60,366 bases of DNA from a virus. The stretch spans positions 1-60,366 of IMG/VR virus record IMGVR_UViG_3300036846_000361; one strand, 5' to 3'. Positions 15,947 to 29,138 of the stretch are shown here, one piece after another. The first letter of the stretch is position 1. The number at the start of each line of letters is the position of its first letter. A model generated the notes under the pieces. That model was given only the letters and a program-made list of their open reading frames with translations. It had not been told where the DNA came from and ran no database searches. Position numbers and translations under genes: made by a program.

Positions 15947-15947
15947 A

Positions 15948-16208: not shown

Positions 16209-16285
16209 CACTCTACATCGTCACGACGTTCGCCATCGTCGCTTGGGGCGCTTTTGTCGCGTCGCTCTTGAGGTGGCTCGGATGA
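16205..16285 (+). CDS. 26-aa membrane peptide
   Basis: The frame encodes MTLYIVTTFAIVAWGAFVAS followed by LLRWLG: one transmembrane helix. It overlaps its upstream neighbour (ATGA) and its downstream neighbour (ATGACG), which argues for translation. A small inner-membrane effector is possible; nothing more can be said. Confidence 0.6.
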   Translation: MTLYIVTTFAIVAWGAFVASLLRWLG

Positions 16286-16458
16286 CGCAAATCCTGAAGT
16301 TCAGGGATGAACGCTTTCAACGCTGCCCAGAATGCGGAAGACCAACCGCACTTCTGAACAACGGACGGTTGAGACGACATTTCGTCGTTGACGAGAGCGG
16401 ACGGCATCTCTGCGTCGAACGAGCAATCGACCGGAAAGCATTGCGGGTGACCGGCTGA
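16282..16458 (+). CDS. Small zinc-ribbon-like protein (58 aa)
   Basis: The 58-aa product contains RCPECGRPTALL and a later RHFVVDESGRHLCVE, so one CxxC plus His/Cys could bind zinc. ATG 16282 overlaps the previous stop. Its TGA lies in the GAAA loop of the next leader's first hairpin. Such small zinc proteins often bind nucleic acids. Confidence 0.68.
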   Translation: MTQILKFRDERFQRCPECGRPTALLNNGRLRRHFVVDESGRHLCVERAIDRKALRVTG

Positions 16459-16515
16459 AAAGCCGGCATCCCGGAATGTCAGCCGGCATTTCGAACAACC
16501 CTAAAGGAGGGTACC
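16443..16515 (+). promoter_or_regulatory. Two-hairpin leader 3
   Basis: Hairpin A: CGGGTG-a-CCGGCT, GAAA, AGCCGG-CATCCCG (16444-16473), with the upstream stop codon in it. Hairpin B: AATG...CATT (16475-16490). Ribosome site 16506-16515. Confidence 0.72.
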
Positions 16516-16517
16516 GA

Positions 16518-17312
16518 ATGATCTATCTCGATGCGGAAGGCAATGAGTGGGAGTTCCGCTACATTGTCACGCAGACCGAGGATGAAGGCCCGGAGCGGTT
16601 GGAGTTTCGGGCACATGATCCGGAGCATCTCGACGACGCCTACAACCCTTGGCGTATTTGGAGCGAGAGCCTGCCGATCCTCAACGAAGCCTACAATCAC
16701 TTCCATGGCTTCTTGATCACGGCCGACATGAACCCGGACAACATCCCGACGCTCGCCGAAGCGTTCAGCAACATCCGACTCATCGCAGAGGAGGAGGACA
16801 ACGAGACGCTCAAGCACATCGGGGACATGGACGAGCCGTTGATCGCGCTCATCCGTGGAGCCCTTGAGGGCGACCTGTCTCCGAGCAATCGGGCGTTGCT
16901 GGCCCATCTCTGCGGCAAGACGATCACACTCGACACTGAGCCCGACGAGTACGAGTACAACGTCTCGCTACACGTCAAGGAGAAGGGCCAAGAAGTGTCC
17001 GAGTACCGGATGGTGATTGATTCCTTCCGGTTGTACTCTGAAAGCCCGTTGAACTTCGCCTTCGACCTCGAAGCGAAGATCATGAACATCGTCAACATGG
17101 GCAAGTATACGCGGCATGAAGTGGTCGCGTGGATCTCAACTGCCTCCGGCGATGAGCACTGGCTCATGACCTGGGCCAATGCGTCTGACCTGATCCTGCT
17201 GGAGCAGGCGTCGGCGCGCGGTTACGACGTCACGAGTCACTTCCAGAGCATCCAGGACGCGATGTCGATCGAAGGTCACAAGTTCGTCCGAGCACGAGCC
17301 GAGCGCAACTAG
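16518..17312 (+). CDS. Hypothetical protein (264 aa)
   Basis: The 264-aa acidic protein is one of the larger unknown early genes. It has Trp/Tyr-rich strands at the start (MIYLDAEGNEWEFRYIVTQ) and helical segments later (LAEAFSNIRLIAEEEDNETLKHIGDM). No motif, signal or membrane segment is seen. It stands alone between leaders 3 and 4. Confidence 0.8.
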   Translation: MIYLDAEGNEWEFRYIVTQTEDEGPERLEFRAHDPEHLDDAYNPWRIWSESLPILNEAYNHFHGFLITADMNPDNIPTLAEAFSNIRLIAEEEDNETLKHIGDMDEPLIALIRGALEGDLSPSNRALLAHLCGKTITLDTEPDEYEYNVSLHVKEKGQEVSEYRMVIDSFRLYSESPLNFAFDLEAKIMNIVNMGKYTRHEVVAWISTASGDEHWLMTWANASDLILLEQASARGYDVTSHFQSIQDAMSIEGHKFVRARAERN

Positions 17313-17321
17313 CGCGTTCAG

Positions 17322-17389
17322 CGGCGGGGCAAGAAGAAAAGCTTGCCCGCGCCGGTGTCCAAAAGGCGCCATAACCAAAGGAGGGTACC
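17322..17389 (+). promoter_or_regulatory. Two-hairpin leader 4
   Basis: Hairpin A: GCGGGGCAAG with CTTGCCCGC (17324-17350). Hairpin B: GGTGTCC, AAAA, GGCGCC (17354-17370). Ribosome site 17380-17389. Confidence 0.72.
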
Positions 17390-17391
17390 GA

Positions 17392-17673
17392 ATGTCGTTT
17401 GTTCCCGATGCACAAGGAACAGCCAAGCGTCGCGAGCAGGATAAGGATATGATCCTGAATCCTGATCGTTGGCCTGTCTGGCCCAAGCTGCCGTTGAAAA
17501 GGCACGGCTATGAGCAGAATCATGGCTTCGCCTTCAACGGAAGCTTGAAAGACGACAACACACGTTCTCGCGTCTACCTGGCGACGATCTTCAGCGCCAT
17601 CGACGATGCGACGCTCTACATCGACTACCCCGACATCGATGCTCTACTCGATGACGGCTGGACGGTGGACTAG
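17392..17673 (+). CDS. Hypothetical protein (93 aa)
   Basis: The 93-aa protein begins MSFVPDAQGTAKRREQDKDM with a charged N-terminus, then NPDRWPVWPKLPLKR, and ends in an acidic segment (IDYPDIDALLDDGWTVD). Short phage proteins with a charged start followed by W-P-x-W-P-x-L-P are frequent in actinobacterial phages, but the function is unknown to me. Confidence 0.75.
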   Translation: MSFVPDAQGTAKRREQDKDMILNPDRWPVWPKLPLKRHGYEQNHGFAFNGSLKDDNTRSRVYLATIFSAIDDATLYIDYPDIDALLDDGWTVD

Positions 17674-17678
17674 TCAGC

Positions 17679-17741
17679 GGCAGGGGTTCACAGAACCCCT
17701 TGCCGGTGTCCATAAGGCCACCAGACCAAAAGGAGGGTACC
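17679..17741 (+). promoter_or_regulatory. Two-hairpin leader 5
   Basis: Hairpin A: GGCAGGGGTTC, ACA, GAACCCC-t-TGCC (17679-17704). Hairpin B: GGTG-CC, ATAA, GG-CACC (17705-17722). Ribosome site 17732-17741. Confidence 0.75.
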
Positions 17742-17742
17742 A

Positions 17743-18030
17743 ATGGACTTTGTCGGACCAGGCTCCCGTAAAATCGGAGTCGGTTTGATGCGGATGTTCA
17801 AGTCCGGACACGAAGCGGCCAAGGTCTACCAGAAGACCAACGAAGGCATCAAGCTTCGCAAGTATCGCGAAGACAACGCCGACGTGGTAGCCGTCATCGA
17901 GATGGAGTCGTCACGTCCCACCGTCACCCGTACATTGATCGGCGCAGCAGTTGCAGGCCCGGTCGGTGCGATCGTTGGTCTCTCAGCACAGAAGAAGGAG
18001 ACCAAAACCGGGAAGGTGAGGGCAAGATGA
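17743..18030 (+). CDS. Small protein with glycine-zipper segment (95 aa)
   Basis: The 95-aa protein has a basic N-terminal half and a hydrophobic Gly/Ala stretch (TLIGAAVAGPVGAIVGLSA) resembling a glycine-zipper membrane segment, then a basic tail. A membrane-associated role is likely. It overlaps the next gene by four bases. Confidence 0.72.
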   Translation: MDFVGPGSRKIGVGLMRMFKSGHEAAKVYQKTNEGIKLRKYREDNADVVAVIEMESSRPTVTRTLIGAAVAGPVGAIVGLSAQKKETKTGKVRAR

Positions 18031-18302
18031 ACGAGATCATCCGCGCAGACGGCGGCGAGATGAACCCGACCACCGCCAAGGTGGTCGAGATCAGATTCGT
18101 CATCGACGGATCGTTCAAGACCGCCAACCTGATCGATGAAGTCTGTGACAACCTCGATTGGGTGTTCGCAGCCGTCGAACTGAACCCGGATGGATTCGGG
18201 CACACGGTTCCGGACATGAACGTCATGCGCACCGCTGCCTGGATGGACAGCGACGTCATGGCGGAGGTCGAGGAATCGCTGAAAAGCGGTGAGCCAAGGT
18301 GA
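18027..18302 (+). CDS. Hypothetical acidic protein (91 aa)
   Basis: The 91-aa protein (MNEIIRADGGEMNPTTAKVVEIRFV...) is acidic, of alpha/beta pattern, and coupled to both neighbours by four-base overlaps. No domain is recognised. Confidence 0.7.
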   Translation: MNEIIRADGGEMNPTTAKVVEIRFVIDGSFKTANLIDEVCDNLDWVFAAVELNPDGFGHTVPDMNVMRTAAWMDSDVMAEVEESLKSGEPR

Positions 18303-18502
18303 AAGCTGAGCCTGGCAAGGTCGTACTCGTCTCCAGCATTCCGGGTTGCAACTTCTGCAATGACGGAACGCCAGGGCCGTACGACTTCAAGACGAGGATG
18401 GGCCCGTGGGCGAACGGTTGCGAGATGCACTATCGTCACCTTCGTGCTACCCCAGACCTCGGCGTCGGTATGGCTCAACTCTGGATCACAGAGGAGTCAT
18501 GA
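18299..18502 (+). CDS. Zinc-finger-like protein (67 aa)
   Basis: GTG 18299 overlaps the previous TGA. The 67-aa product carries GCNFCNDG and later NGCEMHYRHLR, a CxxC...CxxH set that may bind one zinc. It is probably a small nucleic-acid or protein binder. Confidence 0.65.
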   Translation: MKAEPGKVVLVSSIPGCNFCNDGTPGPYDFKTRMGPWANGCEMHYRHLRATPDLGVGMAQLWITEES

Positions 18503-18720
18503 TGGGAGCACACAGCCTAGCTGAAGCTCCGACACGGACGGTTCATGTCGTCCAGGTCTTGTCGAACGGCCGCATGATCTCTTTATGTGGCCGGGAAGCT
18601 GACGAGAGTTGGAAGCGCATCGCGCAGCACGACCAGGCGATCTTCGGCAAGGGACCGAGGTCAATCAGGGAAATGTTACCTGATCTGCGTCTCTGCGCTC
18701 TGTGTCTACCTCGATCATGA
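18499..18720 (+). CDS. Small Cys-containing protein (73 aa)
   Basis: ATG 18499 follows GAGGAG and overlaps the previous stop. The 73-aa product has SLCGRE and LRLCALCLP, a possible split zinc site. The layout (TVHVVQVLSNGRMISLCGRE...) is the same as in the 72-aa protein at 27454 (SVHFVSQSVDNGKWTTLCGKQ...VCHRC), so they belong to one family of small phage zinc proteins. Confidence 0.72.
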   Translation: MMGAHSLAEAPTRTVHVVQVLSNGRMISLCGREADESWKRIAQHDQAIFGKGPRSIREMLPDLRLCALCLPRS

Positions 18721-18875
18721 ACGGCATCGACATCCTCGTGATCGTGATCGTGCTCGCGATCGTGTTCGTCGGAGCGAATATGCTCGACAAGCACGAGACT
18801 GAGCTCGACGATGATGACGACATCGAGGATGAAGTAGCGAAAGCTCGCAAGCGCAAGCGTAACGGCGCAAGCTAG
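18717..18875 (+). CDS. Membrane-anchored charged peptide (52 aa)
   Basis: The frame gives MNGIDILVIVIVLAIVFVGA, a membrane helix, followed by an acidic block (ELDDDDDIEDE) and a basic tail (KARKRKRNGAS). ATGA overlap with the upstream gene supports it. Function unknown; it may tether a complex to the membrane. Confidence 0.65.
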   Translation: MNGIDILVIVIVLAIVFVGANMLDKHETELDDDDDIEDEVAKARKRKRNGAS

Positions 18876-18876
18876 A

Positions 18877-18942
18877 CGGCACCCCGCGCAAGCGGGGCAC
18901 CGTGTGGCGTTCGCCACAGTACGAAACCAAAAGGAGGGTACC
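18877..18942 (+). promoter_or_regulatory. Two-hairpin leader 6
   Basis: Hairpin A: CCCCGC, GCAA tetraloop, GCGGGG with outer CGG/CCG (18877-18902). Hairpin B: TGTGGC, GTTC, GCCACA (18903-18918). Ribosome site 18933-18942. Confidence 0.75.
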
Positions 18943-18943
18943 A

Positions 18944-19252
18944 ATGAAGAAGCTCCATCGCGAGAAGCTCGCAGATCTTGGCATCTCATCGAACAAGTAC
19001 GTCGTGCTCGAAGACGGGACGGTCATCTATGACAAGAACGACCGGCCCAACGGCGTACTGATTCCGATCATCTGGGGCATCACGCTCGAACACGATCGCT
19101 GGATGATGTATGTCGAGTACCAGACCGACGAGTTCGGTGGTCGTCCGCGTCATTACCTGCGCTGGTCGCAGGGTGAGAAGAACGACTTGTCGAGGCCATT
19201 CCTCCGGCAGCAGGATGCGATCGCTGCCGCGATCAGTTCGGTGTACGCATGA
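18944..19252 (+). CDS. Hypothetical protein (102 aa)
   Basis: The 102-aa protein (MKKLHREKLADLGISSNKYVVLEDGTVIYDK...) is an alpha/beta sequence with a Trp-rich beta region (IIWGITLEHDRWMMYVEYQ). It starts behind leader 6 and overlaps the next ATG. No family is recognised. Confidence 0.74.
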   Translation: MKKLHREKLADLGISSNKYVVLEDGTVIYDKNDRPNGVLIPIIWGITLEHDRWMMYVEYQTDEFGGRPRHYLRWSQGEKNDLSRPFLRQQDAIAAAISSVYA

Positions 19253-19512
19253 AGCCGAAAGAAGGTGACAAGGTCAAGGTCATCGACAGGCTCTCATCGC
19301 TCGGCGACGAAAGTGCTCCTGAGATCTGGATCGTCATCCAAGCTCACGACAATCTGGACGAATCCTGGGATCCGTTCGGTGAGTCCGCTTGGGCTCAAAA
19401 GGATCACGATACCGAAACCGGGCAAACCGGCGAATGGTACGTGATCTGCAAGACCGGCGAATGGATGGACGGCACGTGTAGCTTCGCCAGCTACGAGGTC
19501 GAGTCGCTATGA
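19249..19512 (+). CDS. Hypothetical protein, SH3-like start (87 aa)
   Basis: The 87-aa product opens MKPKEGDKVKVIDRL, as in small SH3-like barrels, and is Trp-rich and acidic. It is coupled to both neighbours. A binding role is possible; nothing firmer. Confidence 0.7.
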   Translation: MKPKEGDKVKVIDRLSSLGDESAPEIWIVIQAHDNLDESWDPFGESAWAQKDHDTETGQTGEWYVICKTGEWMDGTCSFASYEVESL

Positions 19513-19637
19513 AGCGAGGCAAGTATCTGCAGATCGGCTCGGGCAGCAGATCCCGCTCGATCGCCAAAGCAGAAGACAAGGCTCGCCGCTCTCGCAAGAA
19601 AGCAGACAAGAAGCAAGCACTCAAGGATCAATCCTGA
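19509..19637 (+). CDS. Highly basic peptide (42 aa)
   Basis: The frame reads MKRGKYLQIGSGSRSRSIAK then a run of Arg/Lys (AEDKARRSRKKADKKQALKD). ATGA overlap supports it. It is probably RNA- or DNA-binding by charge alone. Confidence 0.62.
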   Translation: MKRGKYLQIGSGSRSRSIAKAEDKARRSRKKADKKQALKDQS

Positions 19638-19643
19638 GCACTG

Positions 19644-19711
19644 CGCCTGCCCTCGGCAACGAGGGTTTGGCGGAGACCTCATGAGAGGCTCCAAACCAAA
19701 AGGAGGGTACC
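19644..19711 (+). promoter_or_regulatory. Two-hairpin leader 7
   Basis: Hairpin A: CGCC + CCCTCG, GCAA, CGAGGG + GGCG (19644-19672). Hairpin B: GGAG-CCTC, ATGA, GAGG-CTCC (19672-19692). Ribosome site 19702-19711, here serving a TTG start. Confidence 0.75.
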
Positions 19712-19714
19712 GAT

Positions 19715-19930
19715 TTGACGCGAAAGAAGCCGGCATACACACCGCCAAGGCTTCACGACCAATGCTTCATCGCGAAGACGTATGGCCCATGGTCGTCAGG
19801 GACTCGGGTCGAGATCATCAAGCTCGATATGCCTGCTGACTACGTGGTCGTGCGTCATACCTCGACAGGTGAGGAGTTCGAGATTGAACTCGATGTCCTC
19901 GTCAGGAAGCGAGACCGCAATCGTGACTGA
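19715..19930 (+). CDS. Hypothetical protein with TTG start (71 aa)
   Basis: The only fitting start after leader 7 is TTG at 19715 (MTRKKPAYTPPRLHDQCFIA). The 71-aa product looks like a small beta barrel (GTRVEIIKLDMPADYVVVRHTSTGEEFEIELDVL). Function unknown. Confidence 0.7.
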   Translation: MTRKKPAYTPPRLHDQCFIAKTYGPWSSGTRVEIIKLDMPADYVVVRHTSTGEEFEIELDVLVRKRDRNRD

Positions 19931-20180
19931 ACTCACCGACGGCACCCGCATCCGCATCACGCAGAAGACCAAGCTATGGTATCCGAGCGTGGAGGCGAAT
20001 GTGGAGGTCGAACCTGGTCGCGAGTTCATCGCGATCGACAGGCCCGACGAGAACAATTACGGTTGGTGCCTGCCGGTGGTCGAGCCGGATGTGTACGCCA
20101 GCGATGTCGTCGAGATACACGACGACAGCATGATCGTAGTCTGCGATCCCGATTCGTTCGTGATTGTCGAGGAGAAATGA
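19923..20180 (+). CDS. Hypothetical beta-rich protein (85 aa)
   Basis: GTG 19923 overlaps the end of the previous gene. The 85-aa product is acidic and beta-rich (TELTDGTRIRITQKTKLWYPSVEANVEVEPG). It may be a paralogue-like partner of the 71-aa protein. No family is recognised. Confidence 0.68.
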   Translation: MTELTDGTRIRITQKTKLWYPSVEANVEVEPGREFIAIDRPDENNYGWCLPVVEPDVYASDVVEIHDDSMIVVCDPDSFVIVEEK

Positions 20181-20383
20181 TCATCGACACGCCGGATGGG
20201 ATCGAAGCATACCGCATGCTCGCGATCTACCATCGGCTAAAGCTTGAGATGAAAGGAATCCGGTTCCGCATCTCGACCTTCGCCGTTGCGCGTCGCGAGT
20301 TGGGTATGAGCCCACGTACTCCCAGGGCCAAGGTTCTGGAAGCGTGGGAAGCGAAGATGAAGGAGAAGGGAATCAATGTCTAA
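20177..20383 (+). CDS. Hypothetical basic helical protein (68 aa)
   Basis: ATG 20177 overlaps the previous stop and GAGGAG lies upstream. The 68-aa product is basic and helical (RLKLEMKGIRFRISTFAVARRELG, RAKVLEAWEAKMKEKG). It may bind nucleic acid. No family is recognised. Confidence 0.68.
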   Translation: MIIDTPDGIEAYRMLAIYHRLKLEMKGIRFRISTFAVARRELGMSPRTPRAKVLEAWEAKMKEKGINV

Positions 20384-20564
20384 GCTGACAGTCACGTACG
20401 AGGCTGAGAGCATGGAAGACCTGGCTCAAGGTCTCGAAGCTCGGGCTGAGGAGTTGGAGCAGCAGGTCGGAAGCTCCAACCAGAGAAAAGGTCACCTGCT
20501 CAAGGCTGAGGCAGACGGCTACCGTGCCGCAGCTGAGATCGTCCGCAGAACGACGATCGGCTGA
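20376..20564 (+). CDS. Hypothetical helical protein (62 aa)
   Basis: The 62-aa product is a likely coiled coil (EAESMEDLAQGLEARAEELEQQVG, KAEADGYRAAAEIVRRTTIG). It overlaps its upstream neighbour by eight bases. Function unknown. Confidence 0.7.
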   Translation: MSKLTVTYEAESMEDLAQGLEARAEELEQQVGSSNQRKGHLLKAEADGYRAAAEIVRRTTIG

Positions 20565-20635
20565 CGATCCGGTGGGGTTGGGAAACCAACCCCTTCCGAA
20601 TCGCCAACTGGCGAGGAAACCAAAAGGAGGGTACC
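20565..20635 (+). promoter_or_regulatory. Two-hairpin leader 8
   Basis: Hairpin A: CGATCCGG-t-GGGGTTGG, GAAA, CCAACCCC-CCGAATCG (20565-20603). Hairpin B: TCGCC, AACT, GGCGA (20601-20614). Ribosome site 20626-20635. Confidence 0.77.
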
Positions 20636-20636
20636 A

Positions 20637-21614
20637 ATGACAAGTGGAAAGCGGGACGATCTGTTCCGCAAGATCCAGGGACTCCTCGCAAAAGCCGAGG
20701 CAACCGAGCACGAAGGTGAACGTCAGGTGTTCATGGCGAAGGCCGATGAACTCATGATGAAGTACCGCATCGAGCTTTGGGAACTTCAGCAGCACGAGGC
20801 CGGTCGAATCTCCGAGCGCGAGCCGGTGGTCAAGGACTTTGACTACAGCTTCGCGTTTGAGTCGGGTCCATTCCCGGAGATCAGCGATGCGCTTTGGTCG
20901 CTGTTCTGCTCGACCGCAAGGCACGTCGGCTGCATCATCGTCTTCCACAAGCAGCACTGGAGCGGTGAGAAGAAGCAGTACATGTCGGCTGTCGTCCCGG
21001 TGATCGGCACCGAGAGCGACCAGGGTTACTTGACGCTGCTGTTCTCGTCACTCATGACGCAGCTGGTAGAGCAGATCCGGCCCAAGTACGATCCGGGCAA
21101 GGACTACTACCAGAACCTGCGCATGTTCAAGGAAGCGGGCTGGAACTGGCTGGAGACAGCCAAGGCCATGCAGGATGCCGGCTTCCATACCGACGTGACG
21201 AACGACAAGGCTCGTCACCTGACCGCTCACGCGTACCGCCGCTGGTGCAAGAAGATGGGCATCGACCAGAACTACTCCAACTGGAAGACGTACCGCCGCA
21301 ACTTCGCGGATGGCTTCGTCCACCGGGTGGCCGCTCGCTTCGTCGAGATGGCCGATGCTCAGAAGAAGGTCAAGAGCGACAGTGGCACCGGCTTCGATCT
21401 GGTCCTGCGCGAGCAGCATCAGATCAACCTGGACTTCCTGAATCAGATGTTCCCTGTGACGGGCACCGGCAGAGCCGTGACCGTCGCTCGCGATTCCCGC
21501 AAGTTCGACTCGTCTGCCTATGGCAGTGGTCGCGCAGCGGGCGATCGAGCGAACATCAGCGGCAACCCTGGCCGGGGAGTTCGGCCAGGTGGAGGTCGGC
21601 AACTGAAAAGTTGA
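20637..21614 (+). CDS. DUF2786/DUF7168-type protein (325 aa)
   Basis: Residues ~8-50 (LFRKIQGLLAKAEATEHEGERQVFMAKADELMMKYRI) match the DUF2786 signature: a helix pair with I-x-x-LLAKA...GE...A...A..LM.KY. The middle region (~residues 60-250) fits the DUF7168-like domain that often follows. The C-terminus is Gly/Arg-rich and disordered. The family is common in phages and actinobacteria; its biochemical role is unknown, with nucleic-acid binding suspected. Confidence 0.8.
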   Translation: MTSGKRDDLFRKIQGLLAKAEATEHEGERQVFMAKADELMMKYRIELWELQQHEAGRISEREPVVKDFDYSFAFESGPFPEISDALWSLFCSTARHVGCIIVFHKQHWSGEKKQYMSAVVPVIGTESDQGYLTLLFSSLMTQLVEQIRPKYDPGKDYYQNLRMFKEAGWNWLETAKAMQDAGFHTDVTNDKARHLTAHAYRRWCKKMGIDQNYSNWKTYRRNFADGFVHRVAARFVEMADAQKKVKSDSGTGFDLVLREQHQINLDFLNQMFPVTGTGRAVTVARDSRKFDSSAYGSGRAAGDRANISGNPGRGVRPGGGRQLKS

Positions 21615-21697
21615 CGATCCGGTAGGAGCCTCATTGCGGCGGGGCTCCGTCCGAATCGCCAATAGTTGGCGGTTGAACAAACCCAAAGGAGGGTACC
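21615..21697 (+). promoter_or_regulatory. Two-hairpin leader 9
   Basis: Hairpin A: GATCCGG + GGAGCC, long loop, GGCTCC + CCGAATC (21616-21657). Hairpin B: CGCCAA, TAG, TTGGCG (21657-21671). Ribosome site 21688-21697 abuts the ATG at 21698 directly. Confidence 0.75.
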
Positions 21698-22306
21698 ATG
21701 GAACGGACACCGATCCCGCAGGAGTTGCGGGATTCCGGTCCACTCGCCTCGCCAGCGCAGGTCTCATATCTGAAGGCTCTGCGTGACGGCAAAACCCTGA
21801 GCTCACTAACTCAGGAACAAGTCGAGTGGCTCATCTCGACCGACTTCACCACGATCCCGAAGCGGCGCGCAAGCTCCGTCATCGAGACGCTGGTGGGGCT
21901 GCCTTGGAAGCCGAAGAACGAGCAAGAGGCAGCGCAGGTCGAGGCGAGAGGCGCAGGTCTGCCGGTGTCGATGAACGATCTGCCTGACGGCTACTACGCC
22001 GTCAAGGGTGTCGAAGGTCACAAGAACGACATCTCGTTCTTCCGCCTGCGCTCACCCAAGCAGGGCAACTGGGTCGGCTACCAGTTCACCGATCAGGTTG
22101 TGGGTCATGGGAAGCGGTATCCTGTCAAGGAAGCCGCCACCCGCGAGAAGATCCACGGCATGATCAAGGAACAGGGAGTCACCGAGTGCCGGCAGTTGTA
22201 CGGCCAGGAAATCGGTAGTTGCGGCCGTTGCGGTCGCGAACTCACCGACGACACCAGCCGCGCTCGGGGCATCGGCCCCGACTGCTGGGCGATCATGGGA
22301 GGTTGA
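21698..22306 (+). CDS. Protein with C-terminal DUF6011-type zinc finger (202 aa)
   Basis: The N-terminal part (PASPAQVSYLKALRDGKTL-like, residues ~12-60) resembles a short helical domain found in phage proteins that act on nucleic acids. The C-terminus GSCGRCGRELTDDTSRARGIGPDCW matches the DUF6011 zinc-finger pattern CxxCGRxLTD...GIGPxC. The gene is coupled in space to the KTSC gene. A DNA- or RNA-binding role is likely. Confidence 0.78.
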   Translation: MERTPIPQELRDSGPLASPAQVSYLKALRDGKTLSSLTQEQVEWLISTDFTTIPKRRASSVIETLVGLPWKPKNEQEAAQVEARGAGLPVSMNDLPDGYYAVKGVEGHKNDISFFRLRSPKQGNWVGYQFTDQVVGHGKRYPVKEAATREKIHGMIKEQGVTECRQLYGQEIGSCGRCGRELTDDTSRARGIGPDCWAIMGG

Positions 22307-22307
22307 C

Positions 22308-22583
22308 ATGGTTCTGCAGAAGGTCGATGGCGTTCAGATCTATGACGACAAGAACAAGCGGGTGTTTCTGAACACCCGAGTCGTCTCGTCAACGAACGTC
22401 GAGTGGGTCGGTTGGCCCGAGTCGGGTGAACCGATCATGTTCGTGCGGTACAGTTCCGGCAAGCTCTATGGATACCTCGGCGTCAGCCGCCAGCGCGCGG
22501 TCGCCGCTGCGTACTCATCGAGCGTCGGCGGCTACATCGCCCAGCGCGTCAAGCCGAAGTTCCAAGTTGTACAGATCAGCTAG
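22308..22583 (+). CDS. KTSC-domain-like protein (91 aa)
   Basis: The sequence VVSSTNVEWVGWPESGEPIMFVRYSSGKLYGYLGVSRQRAVAAAYSSSVGGYIAQRVKPKF follows the KTSC pattern: S-x-x-I..V.W....L.V.F.SG..Y.Y..V......L..A.S.G.Y....I. KTSC domains are found alone in phages and fused to tRNA ligase-like proteins; the function is unclear. GGGAGG lies before the ATG. Confidence 0.78.
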   Translation: MVLQKVDGVQIYDDKNKRVFLNTRVVSSTNVEWVGWPESGEPIMFVRYSSGKLYGYLGVSRQRAVAAAYSSSVGGYIAQRVKPKFQVVQIS

Positions 22584-22585
22584 TT

Positions 22586-22645
22586 GCGGCGGACCAATCG
22601 AGAGATTGGCCGCCCGGAGCTAACTGCTCCAGAAAGGAGGGTACC
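22586..22645 (+). promoter_or_regulatory. Two-hairpin leader 10
   Basis: Hairpin A: GGCGGACCAATC, GAGA, GATTGGCCGCC (22588-22614). Hairpin B: GGAGC, TAACT, GCTCC (22616-22630). Ribosome site 22636-22645, serving a TTG start at 22648. Confidence 0.77.
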
Positions 22646-22647
22646 AA

Positions 22648-23238
22648 TTGGACATCGAGAAGGAATGGCGGCGTGATCCGCCGATCGAGCCAATGACTTC
22701 GATGCCGGCACTTTGGCACGACTTCAAACGGCGTCGAGCGGATCCGCAGTCTCCCATCCATCGGTTCAGGGACAACATCCCTGACGCCTGCGCTCTGGAC
22801 GGGTCGGCACATGCAGCTTTGCGCCGAGCCGTCCGCAGTATCAGGCCGAACGGAAAGATGCACAATCATCAGTCGAAAGTCTCACCGGCTCTGCCGCAGT
22901 ACGAGGCGACGCTGATTGAGCATATGAACGTGATCATTCAGATGGACACCTTCAATCGGCTGTACACGATGCTCGGTCTTCTGAAGACTCCGGGCATCGG
23001 TCCGATGACCATCTACGACGTAGCGGTGCGCTTCGGTGCCTGGCTTGGGTTGAAGCCCGAGAAAATCTATGTCCATGCTGGTACGTCGGCTGGACTGAAG
23101 GCGCTCGGCATTAAGCCTGACGGACACAGTGTCCCGATGGAGTTGCTGCCGAGGATTCTGAGACGCAAGGATCCGGATGAGGTCGAAGACTTCCTCTGTA
23201 CATACCGAGTCGCATTTGAAAGGATGAGGGATGCCTGA
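22648..23238 (+). CDS. Helix-hairpin-helix-like protein with TTG start (196 aa)
   Basis: TTG 22648 lies two bases after the leader ribosome site. The 196-aa protein contains LLKTPGIGPMTIYDVAVRFGAWLG, a helix-hairpin-helix-like segment (T-P-G-I-G) typical of non-specific DNA binding, followed by LGLKPEKIYVHAGTSAGLKALG. The arrangement recalls DNA glycosylase or endonuclease-like HhH proteins, but no catalytic residue can be assigned with confidence. Confidence 0.75.
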   Translation: MDIEKEWRRDPPIEPMTSMPALWHDFKRRRADPQSPIHRFRDNIPDACALDGSAHAALRRAVRSIRPNGKMHNHQSKVSPALPQYEATLIEHMNVIIQMDTFNRLYTMLGLLKTPGIGPMTIYDVAVRFGAWLGLKPEKIYVHAGTSAGLKALGIKPDGHSVPMELLPRILRRKDPDEVEDFLCTYRVAFERMRDA

Positions 23239-23425
23239 CTTCCGTATCACGATCGAACTGGTAGATGTCAGCGGCGATCAAACCGACGAACTGGCCAAGG
23301 AAATCGAAGATGACTATGGTCAGGACTTCGGCATCAACGACGGTGACTTCATAGTACGCATCTCGCAGAAGGTCGGCCAGAACTACTTTGGCCGCGACCC
23401 TGGCGACGACGTCATCCAGACGTAG
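23231..23425 (+). CDS. Hypothetical acidic protein (64 aa)
   Basis: The 64-aa acidic protein (MPDFRITIELVDVSGDQTDELAKEIEDDYGQDFGINDGD) overlaps its neighbour by eight bases. It resembles small acidic DNA-mimic-like proteins in charge only. Function unknown. Confidence 0.68.
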   Translation: MPDFRITIELVDVSGDQTDELAKEIEDDYGQDFGINDGDFIVRISQKVGQNYFGRDPGDDVIQT

Positions 23426-23569
23426 TTGCGGGCAGGGCGGGTAGCGCCGCCCCACCCGGAATCTCGTATGGATTCCCGTTTGCCCTGGAAAATTGGGGTA
23501 GACGTATGGGTGAGTCTTAGGTAGGCTTACTCAGGTTGGCCGTAATCTATCTCCAAGGAGGGAGCACCC
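23426..23569 (+). promoter_or_regulatory. Two-hairpin leader 11 plus AT-richer spacer
   Basis: Hairpin A: CGGG + GGGCGG, GTAGCG, CCGCCC + CCCG (23429-23458). Hairpin B: GGAATC...GATTCC (23458-23476). Unlike the other leaders, an extra ~90 bases follow, with GGGGTAGACGTATGGG and an imperfect inverted repeat near 23511-23533, perhaps a promoter or operator. The ribosome site differs (AAGGAGGGAGC) and lacks GGTACC. Confidence 0.6.
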
Positions 23570-24052
23570 ATGGCCAGTAGTGTGAATTTCGCCCAGCTTG
23601 TCAAGCTGGCGAAGCAGGGAATGGGCCACAGCGCGGCAGCCGCCGAGTTGGGCGTCACCGTCGGGCAGATCAGTTCGCTGGTCTTCTCGAAGGCTCTGGT
23701 CGAAGCAGGTCAGTACGACGAAGTGACCAAGGTCACTCCGGCCGTCATCGTCCGTCTCAAGGATGACGAGGGCAACCGCTGGGAACTGATCGCGGCCCGC
23801 ACCGGCAAGACGGTGGGCGAGGTCAAGGACCTGTACGTCGAGGGTGGCGGCGATCTGAACGGTGGATCGCGAACGTCATCGCCGGGAACGAACCGTGCGT
23901 CTGGTCGCAAGACCAAGTCGGCTCCGGCTGCCAAGTCGGGCGCCAAGAAGAAGACGGCAGGCCGCAAGGCCAAGGCGTCTTCGGCACGGCCGGTTGGTCG
24001 CGCTCGCACGCTCGCTGAGCGGCGTCGGTCGCGGTCGTCCAACCCCTCGTAG
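23570..24052 (+). CDS. Histone-like DNA-binding protein (HTH plus basic tail, 160 aa)
   Basis: Residues ~1-45 carry a helix-turn-helix-like segment (MGHSAAAAELGVTVGQISSLVFSKAL). Residues ~45-90 are a mixed domain. Residues ~100-160 are a Lys/Arg/Ala/Ser-rich tail (KSAPAAKSGAKKKTAGRKAK...) like H1-type or mycobacterial HupB tails. It probably binds and condenses DNA or acts as a regulator. Its leader differs from the others, suggesting separate control. Confidence 0.74.
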   Translation: MASSVNFAQLVKLAKQGMGHSAAAAELGVTVGQISSLVFSKALVEAGQYDEVTKVTPAVIVRLKDDEGNRWELIAARTGKTVGEVKDLYVEGGGDLNGGSRTSSPGTNRASGRKTKSAPAAKSGAKKKTAGRKAKASSARPVGRARTLAERRRSRSSNPS

Positions 24053-24093
24053 CGGCGGCCATCGAGGCTACCAGATCCGGTGACTCGGGTGAA

Positions 24094-24354
24094 TTGGAGG
24101 AACTTCTCCACCCCGGTCGCCGGGTCTGGGTCGTTGCGAAGGCTGAAGAGAGAGACGGATGGATCATACCGGCGTCTGTTTACTCGTGTGACATCCGTAG
24201 CTTCAAGCAGTTCCTCCCGCGCGGTATTTTCAACTCTGAGCGTGGCACAGTTGAGCGAAAGCAGTCGCTCGTACAACTGTACACTGATCCCGGCGGGTAT
24301 CGCACGATTGCCGTCGCGAACATCAGGATGAAAGATCCCACGAAGGCTAGGTGA
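24094..24354 (+). CDS. Hypothetical protein, start uncertain (86 aa)
   Basis: The frame is open from 24019 and has no ATG or GTG before the well-formed body (RVWVVAKAEERDGWIIPASVYSCDIRSF...). TTG 24094 is the first usual start, but has no ribosome site. The product may start there, be made by frameshift from the upstream gene, or be re-initiated. The sequence looks like a small beta-rich domain. Function unknown. Confidence 0.55.
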   Translation: MEELLHPGRRVWVVAKAEERDGWIIPASVYSCDIRSFKQFLPRGIFNSERGTVERKQSLVQLYTDPGGYRTIAVANIRMKDPTKAR

Positions 24355-24357
24355 GAC

Positions 24358-24422
24358 TGCGGGCGGGCTGGTAGCAGCCTTGCCCGGAGCTTCATCACGA
24401 AGTTCCATACAGAAGGGGTACC
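24358..24422 (+). promoter_or_regulatory. Two-hairpin leader 12
   Basis: Hairpin A: CGGGC + GGCTG, GTAG, CAGCC + GCCCG (24360-24386). Hairpin B: GGAGCTTC, ATCAC, GAAGTTCC (24386-24406). Ribosome site AGAAGGGGTACC at 24411-24422, with GGTACC kept although the Shine-Dalgarno is altered. Confidence 0.74.
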
Positions 24423-24423
24423 T

Positions 24424-24681
24424 ATGGACGAGTATGTTGATACACTACCCGTCTACACAGCGAAGCGAAGTGAGTCATTCCCTTCGTTTCTCGTTGTGAT
24501 GTGCGGGCGCGAGGACTGTCCAGGTACCAAGGCTGACAGGCCGTTCCTCGTGAGTCAACGCGAATGGATGCGCCCGATTCATAGAGAATCGCGGAGCGGC
24601 AAGCCATTCGTCATCACCGGAAGATCCTGCCCATATTGCTTCAGGGCGGGACGGCTTCCGAAGCGCAGCGCGATCCGGTAG
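24424..24681 (+). CDS. Zinc-ribbon-like protein (85 aa)
   Basis: The 85-aa protein has MCGREDCPGT and RSCPYCFRAGRLPK, a C-x4-C ... CxxC set expected to bind zinc, plus basic residues. Small zinc-ribbon proteins of this shape occur in actinobacterial phages. Function unknown. Confidence 0.74.
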   Translation: MDEYVDTLPVYTAKRSESFPSFLVVMCGREDCPGTKADRPFLVSQREWMRPIHRESRSGKPFVITGRSCPYCFRAGRLPKRSAIR

Positions 24682-24753
24682 GATTCCGGTAGCGCGCGCA
24701 AAAGTTCGCGACGACAAAAGGTAGCCGTTCTACCCGGCGTTGGCGCGATGGAG

Positions 24754-24804
24754 GGGAGGGAAGTCCAGGTCGAGCGTTGGTACCCTCCACCTGGCTTCCC
24801 TCCC
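24754..24804 (+). ncRNA. Hairpin with loop perfectly complementary to leader ribosome sites
   Basis: GGGAGGGAAG-t-CCAGG (24754-24769) pairs with CCTGG-CTTCCCTCCC (24790-24804). The 20-base loop contains TTGGTACCCTCC (24777-24788), the exact reverse complement of GGAGGGTACCAA, the ribosome site of the plus-arm leaders. It lies in a 164-base gap without a gene, preceded by CCGGTAGGATTCCGG (24669-24683), a possible promoter. It may be a trans-acting antisense RNA or a leader that masks ribosome sites. Confidence 0.5.
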
Positions 24805-24845
24805 ACTCTACACAAGCTTGGCCGTATTACAACAAAGGAGGAGGT

Positions 24846-25175
24846 ATGCCAAGGAAAAGAAGGGAGGCTGCATCGACCCACGTTACCTTTGTGGGTCCTG
24901 ACAAGCCTCCCCGGAATAGCCCCGGTGTAAGTTGGGGCATCCGACTCCAACCGCTCGTTCAGAATCCTGGGCAATGGGCTGAGGTCGCGGTGTTCGACAC
25001 CCCGATGCAAGCTCAGCAGGCTCAGGCGAACCTGGTCAAGCGGGAACGAGTTGGGATCAATATTCCGATGAGTGGCGGCGAATGGGAGTTCGCAGCACGC
25101 GATTGTACCCTGTTCGCCGTCTATCGAGGAGGTCAAAAGCGCCGTGGCTCACGTAGCGTTCGCCGAGCTAGCTGA
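24846..25175 (+). CDS. Hypothetical basic protein (109 aa)
   Basis: ATG 24846 follows AAAGGAGGAGGT. The 109-aa protein is basic at both ends and contains a central domain (WGIRLQPLVQNPGQWAEVAVFDTPMQAQQAQANLVKRE), which looks like a small alpha/beta substrate-binding module. Its end overlaps the helicase start by 32 bases. Function unknown. Confidence 0.72.
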   Translation: MPRKRREAASTHVTFVGPDKPPRNSPGVSWGIRLQPLVQNPGQWAEVAVFDTPMQAQQAQANLVKRERVGINIPMSGGEWEFAARDCTLFAVYRGGQKRRGSRSVRRAS

Positions 25176-26943
25176 ACGCGGTGACCGCTGTGTTGTGATC
25201 TTCCGGTACAGCCAAGAGGCTGTCTACGCAATCAAGCGCGTTCCCGGCGCTCGGTTTGTCCCTCACGACAAGGCCGGATCCGTCGGGCAGGCTCACTGGA
25301 CTCTGCCTCTCGACCTTGACGTCATGCGTACCCTGCGCTCGGAGTTCGGTGACGGACTTCAGCTGGGGGATGCGATCAAGGCGTGGGGTCGAGGGCAGGT
25401 CCAGAAGGAGCGCAACCTAACTTCACTCGCCGTGAGCGATGATATCGCGATCGACAAGTTGAAGATAGCGAAGCTCCTGCCGGACCTGACCGAATGGTTC
25501 CGACCGTACCAGCGGGCGGACGTCAAGTTCATGGCGACGACGAACTGTCTGAACCTGAACGAGCCGCGCTTGGGCAAGACGACTGAGGTGATCGGTTCCG
25601 TCTTTGAGGCGGGACTACAGAAGATGCCTCAACTAGCGATCGTGCCCAAGTCTACGATCGACTCCATTTGGAGAATGGAGATCGAGCGGTGGACGAAGAT
25701 CCCGGTGGTAGCGTATCACGGCGATCTCAATGCCCGCGAGAAAGCGGACTGCGAGCGAGTTGTTGAACGCTGCCTCGATAAGGGCAAGCCGTTCTGGTTC
25801 GTGACGACGGCGGACATGATCCGTCGCGGATCGTACCCAGGCGTCGATCAGGTTCCGGTCTGGGGCTCGGTCACCATTGACGAGTTCCACAAGACCGGGT
25901 TGCCTGAGATCAGGAACGTGTTTCCGAAGGCGGTAGGCAAGATCGCGGCTGAACGGAAGTACGCACTCAGCGGCACCCCGATGGGCGGCAAGCCGATCAA
26001 GTTGTGGGGCGCTCTGCACTTCATCGAACCTAACCAGCATACGTCGAAGTGGACGTGGGCTGCGCAATGGCTCGTGATCAATACGGTGTGGGGCAATCAC
26101 AAGGAGATAGGCGGCATCAAGCGAGGTCGTGAAGACGACTTCTACCGGATGCTGTCCAAGCATGCCATCCGTCGGCTCCGGAGCGAGGTATTGCCCGAGC
26201 TACCGGAGAAACAGTGGGTGGATGTCTGGTGCAAGATGACTGCCGGCCAGGCGGCTCAGTACAACGAGTTCGCCAAGCAGGCAGAAATCCGCATCGACGA
26301 GTTCCACCTATCTGCTACGAGCGTGCTCGCGGAGTATGTCCGGCTCAAGCAGTTCGCCAATCATAAGAACAAGGTCGAAGTGCTGGGCATGGATAAGGAG
26401 ACGGGAAAGCTTGACTTGAAAGTCAGAGCCACCGAGGAATCAGGGAAGCTGCCAGAGCTACTCGAACGGTTGTACGAGTGCGGCATCGATCCTGAGGAGC
26501 CGGAAGGTGATGAACAAGCGATCGTGGCTTCTCAGTTCCGCGAGACCGCCGAGATGGTTCACCGCCATCTTACCTCTCAGGGTATCGGATGTGCGATCAT
26601 CAGCGGTAGGGTGCCGCAGAAGGAACGCAATCGGCTTCAGGCCGAGTTCCAGAGCGGCAAGCTCCGCGTTATGATCGTCGTCACCGCTGCTGCCGGCGTT
26701 GGCATTACGCTGAACAAGGCGGCTTCGGTCCATGTTCTCGATGAGACCTGGAACCCCGACGATCAGGAGCAGCTGACCGATCGCGCAGTCGATACGAATG
26801 AGTACCATCAGGTCACGGTGTTCGTGTACCGGAGCCGTGGCACTGTGGAGCAGTACATTAAGGAAGTGAACGACGAGAAGTGGGACGTGAACAAGGACAT
26901 CCTCGATCTGCGGAGGCAAGGCTTCCGCGCCATGAAAGGGTAA
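25144..26943 (+). CDS. SNF2-type superfamily 2 helicase
   Basis: GTG 25144 has GGAGGTC ten bases upstream and gives 599 aa. Motifs in order: Walker A-like EPRLGKTTE (~139), DEFH box in VTIDEFHKTG (~245), motif III YALSGTPMGG (~275), motifs V/VI VTAAAGVGITLNKA...LDETWNPDDQEQLTDR. The N-terminal ~100 residues may be a HARP-like or DNA-binding region. It is an ATP-dependent DNA translocase of the SNF2/SMARCAL1 class, probably for replication-fork remodelling. It opens the replication block. Confidence 0.9.
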   Translation: MAHVAFAELAERGDRCVVIFRYSQEAVYAIKRVPGARFVPHDKAGSVGQAHWTLPLDLDVMRTLRSEFGDGLQLGDAIKAWGRGQVQKERNLTSLAVSDDIAIDKLKIAKLLPDLTEWFRPYQRADVKFMATTNCLNLNEPRLGKTTEVIGSVFEAGLQKMPQLAIVPKSTIDSIWRMEIERWTKIPVVAYHGDLNAREKADCERVVERCLDKGKPFWFVTTADMIRRGSYPGVDQVPVWGSVTIDEFHKTGLPEIRNVFPKAVGKIAAERKYALSGTPMGGKPIKLWGALHFIEPNQHTSKWTWAAQWLVINTVWGNHKEIGGIKRGREDDFYRMLSKHAIRRLRSEVLPELPEKQWVDVWCKMTAGQAAQYNEFAKQAEIRIDEFHLSATSVLAEYVRLKQFANHKNKVEVLGMDKETGKLDLKVRATEESGKLPELLERLYECGIDPEEPEGDEQAIVASQFRETAEMVHRHLTSQGIGCAIISGRVPQKERNRLQAEFQSGKLRVMIVVTAAAGVGITLNKAASVHVLDETWNPDDQEQLTDRAVDTNEYHQVTVFVYRSRGTVEQYIKEVNDEKWDVNKDILDLRRQGFRAMKG

Positions 26944-26945
26944 AG

Positions 26946-27200
26946 ATGATTCACTTCATCGTGCTCTTGGTGGCTTTTGGTTGGGCGATTATGACCGCGA
27001 TTCCCAAGGCTGCGGAGCTTCGTAGCCAAGGGGAGCGGAAGAACGGCCCAGCTAAGGCTCGCCAGGGCGGGAAACAGGCTCCTACAAGCTCTCCGAGGGT
27101 GCGTAGGACGGTCTCCGCGCCGCGCGTCCTGTCGAGCGCGGACTACAAGGAGATGGACGAGTGGTTTTCGGAAGGTAGCAAGCCCGAAGACTACAAGTGA
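26946..27200 (+). CDS. Membrane-anchored small protein (84 aa)
   Basis: ATG 26946 lies three bases after the helicase stop. MIHFIVLLVAFGWAIMTAIP is one membrane helix. A basic Ser/Pro-rich linker follows, then an acidic end (ADYKEMDEWFSEGSKPEDYK). Function unknown. Confidence 0.7.
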   Translation: MIHFIVLLVAFGWAIMTAIPKAAELRSQGERKNGPAKARQGGKQAPTSSPRVRRTVSAPRVLSSADYKEMDEWFSEGSKPEDYK

Positions 27201-27207
27201 GCGGGTA

Positions 27208-27279
27208 GCGGGTGAGGCCGACAATTGAGCGGCCCACCCCGGTGCTCGTGTCGAGTACCAGAACCGAAAGGAGGGTACC
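27208..27279 (+). promoter_or_regulatory. Two-hairpin leader 13
   Basis: Hairpin A: GGGTG-a-GGCCG, nine-base loop, CGGCC-CACCC (27210-27239). Hairpin B: GGTGCTCG, TGT, CGAGTACC (27241-27259). Ribosome site 27270-27279, directly followed by ATA instead of ATG. Confidence 0.75.
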
Positions 27280-27423
27280 ATACTCAAAAAGCTGTCACAG
27301 AGTAGGACGGCCAGATGGGAACGTGCTGCTACCTCTCTGCGCGAGGCAGCCGACAAGGTGGAAGCTCTATTCTCTGAGTTGGATGAACCGCTCAACGAGT
27401 TGCGTGACCTGCAGGCGGAGTAA
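27280..27423 (+). CDS. 47-aa helical protein with apparent ATA start
   Basis: Directly after the consensus ribosome site the frame reads ATA CTC AAA AAG CTG..., giving ILKKLSQSRTARWERAATSL, then REAADKVEALFSELDEPLNELRDLQAE and TAA. The product is a clean amphipathic helix pair. There is no ATG, GTG or TTG near the site; internal TTG codons lie too far downstream. An AUA start would be rare; a sequencing or natural ATG-to-ATA change is the alternative. Confidence 0.6.
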   Translation: MLKKLSQSRTARWERAATSLREAADKVEALFSELDEPLNELRDLQAE

Positions 27424-27453
27424 ATCAATGACGCTTGGAAGGAGGTAATCGGT

Positions 27454-27672
27454 ATGGCATCCCTTGCCAAGCCGAGGCCAGACGGCTCCGTCCATTTTGT
27501 CTCGCAGTCAGTAGACAACGGGAAGTGGACGACGCTGTGTGGCAAGCAGGTGAAGGCGAGTACGTGGGTGTTCACACACGCGTACGACGATCGGATTGTT
27601 GAACTGAAGCAATCCGGTCGTGCCCGGAGCGAATTGCGCTCTCTGGGCTACGTCTGTCACCGCTGTTTCTGA
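27454..27672 (+). CDS. Small zinc-finger-like protein (72 aa)
   Basis: ATG 27454 follows AAGGAGGTAATCGGT. The 72-aa product has TTLCGKQ and YVCHRCF, a split C...CxxC zinc site, and resembles the 73-aa protein at 18499. Both may be members of one phage zinc-protein family of unknown role. Confidence 0.73.
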   Translation: MASLAKPRPDGSVHFVSQSVDNGKWTTLCGKQVKASTWVFTHAYDDRIVELKQSGRARSELRSLGYVCHRCF

Positions 27673-27715
27673 GCCTGTAACGGGTGTACCATTCCCCTCA
27701 AGTCAACCCGACAAC

Positions 27716-27836
27716 CTAAATAACGTACGCGAGGCGAGAGAACAGACTAACCGCTGATCTGGCTCTCGGGCGCGTATACGCGCGGAGGACCGGCTTTCAT
27801 TTCAAAACAGTTCGGAGCCTCGCGTACGTTATTTAG
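27716..27836. repeat. 20-bp perfect inverted repeat with structured centre
   Basis: CTAAATAACGTACGCGAGGC at 27716-27735 is exactly inverted at 27817-27836. The 81-base centre holds further pairs: CGAGAG with CTCTCG and the 14-base palindrome GCGCGTATACGCGC near 27769-27782. The block is non-coding. It could be a cruciform or origin element, or an RNA of about 120 nt. It is followed by another stem, GGAAAGCC (27840-27847) with GGCTTTCC (27913-27920). Confidence 0.75.
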
Positions 27837-27839
27837 ATG

Positions 27840-27980
27840 GGAAAGCCCCGGAAACCGAGCCGATTAGACTTCCATCCGCCCGTCCGGTAGAGTCTCCCGG
27901 TCGGTCGAGACTGGCTTTCCTCCGCTTTGTTTTGACCCCCTAACTTGAACTTGAACCCTAGCCCCAGAGGGAGCAGGCAC
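27840..27980 (+). promoter_or_regulatory. Hairpin-rich leader and possible promoter of recombination genes
   Basis: GGAAAGCC (27840-27847) pairs with GGCTTTCC (27913-27920) and encloses AGTCTC/GAGACT (27889-27894/27906-27911). CCGGTAGAGT at 27883-27892 resembles the CGGTAGAAT motif of other putative promoters. A GAGGGAGC ribosome site precedes ATG 27981. Within the 308-base gap from 27673 no gene is seen. Confidence 0.45.
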
Positions 27981-29138
27981 ATGTCTTCTATTCAGCGAAA
28001 TCGTACACGTGCGGAACGAACGAAGCATCGGGAGACCCGTAGCGATTTGAGGAGGCCCGCGCCCAGCTCACTGCGCGGTGGCGTTGCGGGTCTCCCAATG
28101 TTGCGTACGTCCGAGCGTAGTACGTTCAAGCGGTGCCATTGGAAGTGGTACTGGGAGTTCGAGGAAGTGCTCAAGCCCAATACCGACGTTCCGCCCCTAC
28201 GCTTCGGATCGCTCGTTCATAAGGCACTCGCGGACTACTACAAACCAGGGATCAAGCGAGGCCCGAAACCTGCCGCGAGCTTCCGCAAATACTACGACGC
28301 GGAACTGAAGCTACAAGAGCAGTTCGGCTTCCGTGTACCGGACGTTGAGGCCGACGAGATATGGGTCGAGGCAGGCGAGCTAGGCGAGGCGATGCTGACT
28401 CATTACGTCGAGCACTACGGTCACGACGATGAGTGGGAGATCATCGTAACCGAGCAGCCGTTCGAGCAAGTCGTCTACCACGAGCGCCGAACCGACAGGT
28501 GGCCATACTCGAAACGCGAGCCCTTGTTCATCTACGTCGGCATCCTCGACGGGATCTGGCGCAACCGGCGAACGAAGAAACTCAGCATCGTAGACCACAA
28601 GACGGCGAAGGCAATCAACGTCATGTACCTCGCGCTCGATTTACAGGCGACCGGCTATTGGACGTGGGGGCTTGACTGGATCTACGAGAAGGGATTGCTG
28701 AAGCCGAACGAGAAGCCAGCTGGCATGATGTATAACCACCTGCGCAAGGCTCTCCCCGACTCGCGACCGTACGAGCTAGTGAACAACCGGAGAATCTACC
28801 TCAACAAGGACGGCGCGTACAGCAAGCAGCAACCGCCCGCCTACTTCAGCCGCACTCCGATCTACCGCGATTGGAATGAGCGCGAGGTAGCGCGATCACA
28901 AGTGCTCGCAGAATTTGCCGATATAGCGCGGATCCGCGCGGAAGGGAAACAGCCAGACGGATCACCGCCGGTCGCCGCATATAAGAACCAAGGACAGTTT
29001 ACATGTCCAGGGTGCTGGCTATTCGATTCCTGCGAGCTTCATGAAATCGGTGCCGACTGGAAGGAGATGCTAGAGCATAGTACAAAGAAGTGGGATCCGT
29101 ACACGGAGCACGAAGTGTACGCTGGAGAGACGAAATGA
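27981..29138 (+). CDS. PD-(D/E)XK exonuclease, RecB/Cas4-like
   Basis: The 385-aa protein has the RecB-family order: FGSLVHKALADYY (motif with His), GILDGIWRNRRTKKLSIVDHKTAK (catalytic Asp and DHK), and a QATGYWTWGLDW helix. One Cys near the N-terminus (RCHW) and CPGCWLFDSC at the C-terminus form a four-Cys set like the Fe-S cluster of AddB/Cas4-type nucleases. It probably resects double-strand ends for the annealing proteins encoded downstream. ATG 27981 is preferred; a later in-frame ATG lies at 28098. Confidence 0.85.
   Translation: MSSIQRNRTRAERTKHRETRSDLRRPAPSSLRGGVAGLPMLRTSERSTFKRCHWKWYWEFEEVLKPNTDVPPLRFGSLVHKALADYYKPGIKRGPKPAASFRKYYDAELKLQEQFGFRVPDVEADEIWVEAGELGEAMLTHYVEHYGHDDEWEIIVTEQPFEQVVYHERRTDRWPYSKREPLFIYVGILDGIWRNRRTKKLSIVDHKTAKAINVMYLALDLQATGYWTWGLDWIYEKGLLKPNEKPAGMMYNHLRKALPDSRPYELVNNRRIYLNKDGAYSKQQPPAYFSRTPIYRDWNEREVARSQVLAEFADIARIRAEGKQPDGSPPVAAYKNQGQFTCPGCWLFDSCELHEIGADWKEMLEHSTKKWDPYTEHEVYAGETK

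Follow-up and report, generated by a model that had tools for sequence, protein, structure and literature searches.

The window, the whole 60,366-nucleotide stretch of viral DNA analysed here, has a hairpin between two small genes whose loop carries UUGGUACCCUCC, a perfect antisense match to the extended ribosome site GGAGGGTACCRA. Sequence comparisons make it probable that this hairpin belongs to an antisense RNA acting in trans, which would shut off the translation of the early genes together. The locus contains the following features.

24424-24681, + strand: P2, the upstream ORF, 85 aa, CxxC-type, syntenic in relatives
24682-24845, + strand: intergenic gap with both hairpins inside, bounded by the ORF at 24424-24681 and the next ATG at 24846; candidate antisense RNA of about 100-130 nt
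24706-24748, + strand: companion hairpin H1, GC-rich, just upstream of the anti-leader hairpin (folding)
24754-24770, + strand: 5' arm of the anti-leader hairpin with a bulged T at 24764; 16 of 16 positions pair with the 3' arm (folding)
24771-24788, + strand: 18-nt loop of the anti-leader hairpin, CGAGCGTTGGTACCCTCC, with a 10-mer conserved in all relatives covering the locus
24789-24804, + strand: 3' arm of the anti-leader hairpin (folding)
24846-25175, + strand: P1, the downstream ORF, 109 aa, syntenic in relatives
25072-26943, + strand: DNA helicase (PHROG 62), which opens the block of replication genes that follows the hairpin

The anti-leader hairpin (24754-24804) consists of a 16-bp stem with one bulge and an 18-nt loop, CGAGCGUUGGUACCCUCC, and folding of the region gives a minimum free energy of -42.9 kcal/mol. 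The preliminary description had reported a 15-bp stem in a non-coding gap at 24682-24845. The gap is right and the hairpin is present, and its length is slightly better given as 16 bp with the one bulged T. The last 12 bases of the loop, TTGGTACCCTCC at 24777-24788 of the + strand, are the exact reverse complement of GGAGGGTACCAA, as had been claimed, and are flush with the 3' arm of the stem. Folding also places a counterpart of H1 at the same position in the relatives inspected. Near the hairpin, a consensus scan detected no promoter; a possible one is a TAGGAT-like element that 7 of 9 relatives have at the end of P2. ARAGORN calls no tRNA in the window, nor in any of ten related loci. A search of Rfam 15 returned no family at E<=1 in positions 13600-28600 of the window, and no family reached its gathering score in the four relatives searched.

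The ribosome sites to which the loop is complementary form an array of leaders, all on one strand.

15448-15459, + strand: leader 1 motif, GGAGGGTACCGA
15937-15948, + strand: leader 2 motif, GGAGGGTACCAA
16506-16517, + strand: leader 3 motif, GGAGGGTACCGA
17380-17391, + strand: leader 4 motif, GGAGGGTACCGA
17732-17743, + strand: leader 5 motif, GGAGGGTACCAA
18933-18944, + strand: leader 6 motif, GGAGGGTACCAA
19702-19713, + strand: leader 7 motif, GGAGGGTACCGA
20626-20637, + strand: leader 8 motif, GGAGGGTACCAA
21688-21699, + strand: leader 9 motif, GGAGGGTACCAT
22636-22647, + strand: leader 10 motif, GGAGGGTACCAA
27270-27281, + strand: leader-like motif, GGAGGGTACCAT, the sole copy downstream of the hairpin

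Ten of the 11 forward copies are upstream of the hairpin (15448-22636) and one is downstream (27270), and there is one inverted copy. Leaders 2, 5, 6, 8 and 10 contain GGAGGGTACCAA exactly (at 15937, 17732, 18933, 20626 and 22636), which are the five named in the preliminary description. The near-identity that it had claimed for the others also holds; the remaining leaders are one base off, with GGAGGGTACCGA, a single change from GGAGGGTACCAA, four times and GGAGGGTACCAT at 21688 and 27270. Written as GGAGGGTACC(RA), the motif is near-invariant, has one orientation and stands before early genes. The hairpin is located at the downstream border of this array, ahead of the replication genes, almost all of whose starts are without the motif. 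The ribosome site of P1 is AGGAGGAGGT, and the full shared motif is absent there.

In each of the leaders at 15448-22636, the shared motif is also immediately preceded by two small hairpins, which vary in sequence. The copy at 27270 is a complete leader with the shared motif, yet no obvious start codon follows it. A second near-antisense site, ATGGTACCCCCC with 2 mismatches, occurs at 14957-14968 just before the first leader gene. The non-coding region at 13890-14290, ahead of the early genes, is dense in TTGAGTT/AACTCAA-like repeats and is possibly an operator or promoter region.

The match between loop and leaders is unlikely to result from chance. The preliminary description had expected a given 12-mer far less than once in 60 kb, and letter-permuted versions of the antisense 12-mer bear this out, with a mean of 0.0015 per 60 kb strand (0.08 for the 10-mer). 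Matches at no more than 2 mismatches number 18, compared with 2.9 expected; none of 100 shuffles gave as many as 18. The strongest argument against chance is the conservation of the hairpin in relatives, which were gathered from IMG/VR through the leader scan, the helicase and P2. Seven relatives (G001-G005, G010 and G011) have 8 to 15 copies each in the leader orientation and exactly one opposed copy, and the truncated record G055 has two leader copies and one opposed copy. Arrays of GGAGGGTACC with one opposed copy in a hairpin loop are therefore present in 8 of the 8 relatives whose records cover the locus, and the hairpin of G005 is also present in its near-copy 3300047444_000469. In every case the opposed copy is located between P2 and P1 and is part of the loop on a long GC stem. 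The preliminary description had proposed looking for relatives that keep the leaders and lose the loop complement; none of these 8 close relatives does so, and the combination was found only in more distant lineages.

The P2 proteins of the eight relatives are 52-69% identical, and the hairpins differ in their stems. Nine hairpins of this motif class and three of others were compared; in all 12, each of the 11-17 stem positions pairs, and most positions have 2-4 different Watson-Crick pairs. Within its class, the loop 10-mer GGTACCCTCC does not vary. Across the relatives the antisense bases abut the 3' arm and 5-10 spacer bases occupy the 5' side of the loop.

Seven relatives (G002-G005, G010, G011 and G055) also have a tRNA-like minihelix 3' of the hairpin and before P1, which was read by eye. 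It consists of an acceptor stem, a T arm with a UUCRAYY loop and a GG-containing linker; the anticodon arm is absent, except perhaps in L106. In the corresponding loci (L104, L105, L106, L107, L227, L228 and L248) it is directly 3' of the hairpin, except in L227, where it is further off; G010 has further sequence between the hairpin and the minihelix. ARAGORN does not call the minihelix as a tRNA. It is absent in the window and in G001, the closest relative, where only CAAGCTTGGCCGT is left. RNase P might use the minihelix to free the RNA, as with the C4 RNA of P1/P7 (PMC11143913).

Where the helicase is more distant (35-46% identical), the phages have other leader motifs, and their hairpin loops match them. 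The leaders GGAGGGTACA of L011 and L012 occur with the loop TTGTACCCTCC, and the leaders GGAGGGTCA of L002 with the loop TTGACCCTCC. L006, L009 and the fragment L411 combine the motif AAAGGAGCCA with the loop GGATGGCTCCTTT, and L027 combines the leaders AAGGAGCTAC with the loop GTAGCTCCT. As leader and loop pairs these read GGAGGGTACA/UGUACCCUCC, GGAGGGTCA/UGACCCUCC, AAAGGAGCCA/UGGCUCCUUU and AAGGAGCUAC/GUAGCUCCU. Seed and target thus covary across five IMG/VR motif classes and the start-associated array of cluster K (SAS, below). In a scan with shuffled motifs, which allows no stem bulge and so misses the window hairpin, the eight other positives each beat all 40 shuffles. The leaders of the AAAGGAGCCA lineage are on both sides of the hairpin; therefore, the position at the border of the array is not universal.

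The hairpin itself is not universal either, since leader or SAS arrays without a detectable anti-leader hairpin occur in G009, G047, TM4, ZoeJ, Pixie, Unicorn, Aminay and AnnaSerena; in Pixie, ZoeJ, Unicorn and Aminay the search covered the left 3.5 kb and the right half. Phages that have P2 and no leader array (L253-L267) lack the hairpin too. In phiRKBJ001 the inverted copies are outside convincing hairpin loops, and a scan for the inverted motif plus CCCCC gave, among the matches listed, mostly chance matches. In G008 (L110/L231) the leaders are mixed, GGAGGGTAC[CAT], and at 22247 of the reverse strand there is a weak hairpin with the loop AAATACCCTCC; its antisense is only 8 nt long and is within the range of the shuffled controls. 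L003 and L004 are one contig (IMG/VR 3300046533_000294, 129757 b) with two helicase and leader arrays, 20 copies of GGAGGGTCA on one strand and no inverted copy; the contig may be two phages joined. No near DNA relatives were found in the phages collection and no homologs of P1 or P2 among cultured phages; the helicase is only about 30% identical to those of Streptomyces, Arthrobacter and Microbacterium phages. A search of genome contigs with P2 found no relatives, and therefore no host or prophage was identified.

Among cultured phages, the closest parallel is in cluster K of the mycobacteriophages. The SAS/ESAS elements of this cluster are an over-conserved array of ribosome sites before many non-structural genes (Pope et al. 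2011, PMC3203893). The SAS extends past what 16S rRNA can pair with, K1 phages have a single SAS in the opposite orientation that is not tied to a gene start, and nothing was proposed about the partner or function beyond "RNA or protein" (PMC3203893). The window leaders likewise extend beyond the pairing with 16S rRNA. In Adephagia, Anaya and eight further K1-type genomes, folding shows that the single inverted SAS of K1 forms the loop of a long hairpin. These ten hairpins have compensatory changes in the stem, with a covariation score of 0.165 compared with 0.134 for shuffles, 7 of 500 of which reach it. The K5-type genomes, including Kratio, have the same loop on an unrelated stem 0.8-1.2 kb from the left end; this K5 anti-SAS hairpin is newly found here, and in Kratio it is inside an annotated ORF. 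In the K1 and K5 loops, 10 contiguous bases pair and are followed by a conserved mismatch (CCUCC instead of GCUCC). The Adephagia hairpin is at about 58661-58713, in the gap between genes 92 and 93 (58447-58878), and late transcription of this phage is reported to start between these two genes (PMC11373665). Representatives of K2, K3, K6 and K7 have no detectable hairpin. An inverted copy in ZoeJ was considered as an anti-SAS and rejected; it is directly upstream of a leftward gene and is an ordinary SAS.

The strand on which the hairpin would act is suggested by its G-U pairs. Over 29 hairpins, which are not independent because ten are from close K1 relatives, the strand with the antisense loop has 38 G-U pairs and a summed energy of -839 kcal/mol, compared with 12 and -735 kcal/mol for the complement. 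L002, L006, L009, L011, L012, L027 and L411 each show the same strand direction individually. Only the strand that functions as RNA tolerates G-U pairs; therefore, the functional RNA would carry the antisense loop and run in the same direction as the leaders, and an antisense RNA is favoured. The preliminary description had proposed a trans-acting master regulator. Its antisense RNA part gains support from this asymmetry, and action in trans and repression are inferred. The predicted duplexes between the loop and eleven leader sites are 10-12 nt long and range from -22.6 to -28.0 kcal/mol, compared with -9.0 to -19.1 for the other starts tested, a list in which the entry 17743 is leader 5 itself. 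The leader motif is predicted to be more open than random in Adephagia and L006; in the group of the window its predicted openness is no greater than that of random windows (0.43 vs 0.43).

Four other explanations of the hairpin were considered. It may be a functionless inverted relic of a leader, as the preliminary description had offered for an alternative, given that the leader motif is present in reverse. This is extremely improbable and is rejected, because the loop 10-mer is invariant in nine genomes and the hairpin is kept in eight relatives with P2 proteins only 52-69% identical while the stem has been rewritten by compensatory changes. The loop also changes to match in lineages with other leader motifs, and the inverted copy is without the two hairpins and the A-rich spacer of the leaders. 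The strong GC stem between gene blocks could instead suggest a terminator or processing hairpin, in which the likeness of the loop to the motif would be accidental or a relic. The stem has no T-run after it and no intrinsic terminator signature; within 24400-24900 the sole terminator-like site reported is a separate one on the minus strand. Conservation is highest in the loop and the stem is variable, which disfavours a plain terminator as well as a relic, since either would keep the stem or nothing. Since the loops also change along with the leader motif, a terminator is very unlikely.

The conserved, asymmetric stoperator arrays of cluster A are bound by a protein, and either strand of a hairpin can fold. 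GGAGGGTACC may thus be bound by a phage protein, as DNA or RNA, with the hairpin as an extra site or, if transcribed from the other strand, a decoy. This is quite unlikely, as the opposite orientation and the hairpin loop recur together across unrelated lineages and the G-U pairs favour the strand bearing the antisense. The K1 and K5 loops also keep their mismatch to the SAS, which argues against a simple copy of the site. A sensor in cis is unlikely as well. In that case the hairpin would serve the replication or late operon downstream of it as a 5'-leader switch, and abundant early leaders would pair with the loop and alter the folding or stability of that transcript; regulation would run from the leaders to the mRNA of the hairpin, not in the other direction. 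Its position upstream of the helicase block in the group of the window, and in Adephagia within the gap from which late transcription starts, is consistent with such a switch. However, pairing with the loop does not require the stem of 11-24 bp to open, the Kratio hairpin is inside an annotated ORF, and the conserved motif of the leaders coincides exactly with the ribosome site, the place at which blocking would have the greatest effect.

As a trans-acting antisense RNA, the hairpin would offer 10-12 unpaired bases, GGUACCCUCC plus UU, which would pair with the extended Shine-Dalgarno sequence GGAGGGUACC(RA) before about ten early genes. The pairing would bury the Shine-Dalgarno core, ribosomes could not start, and the whole early set would be turned off at once. 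The RNA would probably be made with the next temporal class of transcript, which would time the shut-off; this is suggested by where the hairpin stands, at the array border and ahead of genes without the motif, together with the late start point in Adephagia. It is fairly likely that these hairpins represent a class of phage "anti-leader" RNA, in which each lineage pairs an array of extended ribosome sites with a co-evolving hairpin loop, made with the next temporal class of transcript, that silences the earlier class translationally. Such a class would account for the function of the SAS, and some of its members would be processed at the minihelix. It would include this uncultured group, at least four further leader-motif classes and the cluster K1/K5 mycobacteriophages. 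No description of such an RNA was found in the literature (open-licence papers).

The role of the SAS has been listed as unknown since 2011, and the anti-SAS hairpin is a concrete, testable partner for it in K1 and K5. Cluster K includes TM4 and phages in development for therapy. The findings suggest a translational switch from early to late that is programmed by one loop sequence and co-evolves with its targets, and such switches could be detectable in genomes from sequence alone.

The SAS of cluster K resembles the leaders of the window as a near-invariant array of ribosome sites in one orientation before non-structural genes, and in K1 also by the single opposite-orientation copy away from a gene start, in a hairpin loop. 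It differs in being the 13-bp GGGATAGGAGCCC immediately upstream of start codons, and the stems are unrelated. An SAS-like motif, GGGAAAGGACCCC, is described for cluster EF of the Microbacterium phages (PMC7302621); as in the window, there are ten conserved ribosome-site motifs, in a phage whose helicase is distantly related. An anti-motif hairpin was predicted for AnnaSerena of this cluster and was then not found. Unlike stoperators, the sites of the window overlap ribosome sites.

The C4 antisense RNA of P1/P7 acts at a ribosome site and is, like the candidate in the window, a phage RNA complementary to a ribosome-site region. It controls one transcript, whereas one loop in the window matches about ten separate leaders, and the window region matches no described Rfam family. 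According to the passage of PMC11143913 that cites Hartmann et al. 1995, C4 is released from a precursor by RNase P; the minihelix of the seven relatives could serve RNase P, and the window is without it. The candidate also has a likeness among bacterial RNAs that act on many targets. In staphylococcal RsaE/RsaA and similar sRNAs, a C-rich (UCCC) loop pairs with the purine-rich ribosome sites of many mRNAs, and the window likewise presents a C-rich hairpin loop to many ribosome sites. The seeds of those sRNAs are short and generic, whereas the loop of the window has 10-12 nt with a lineage-specific extension that changes with a dedicated phage leader array.
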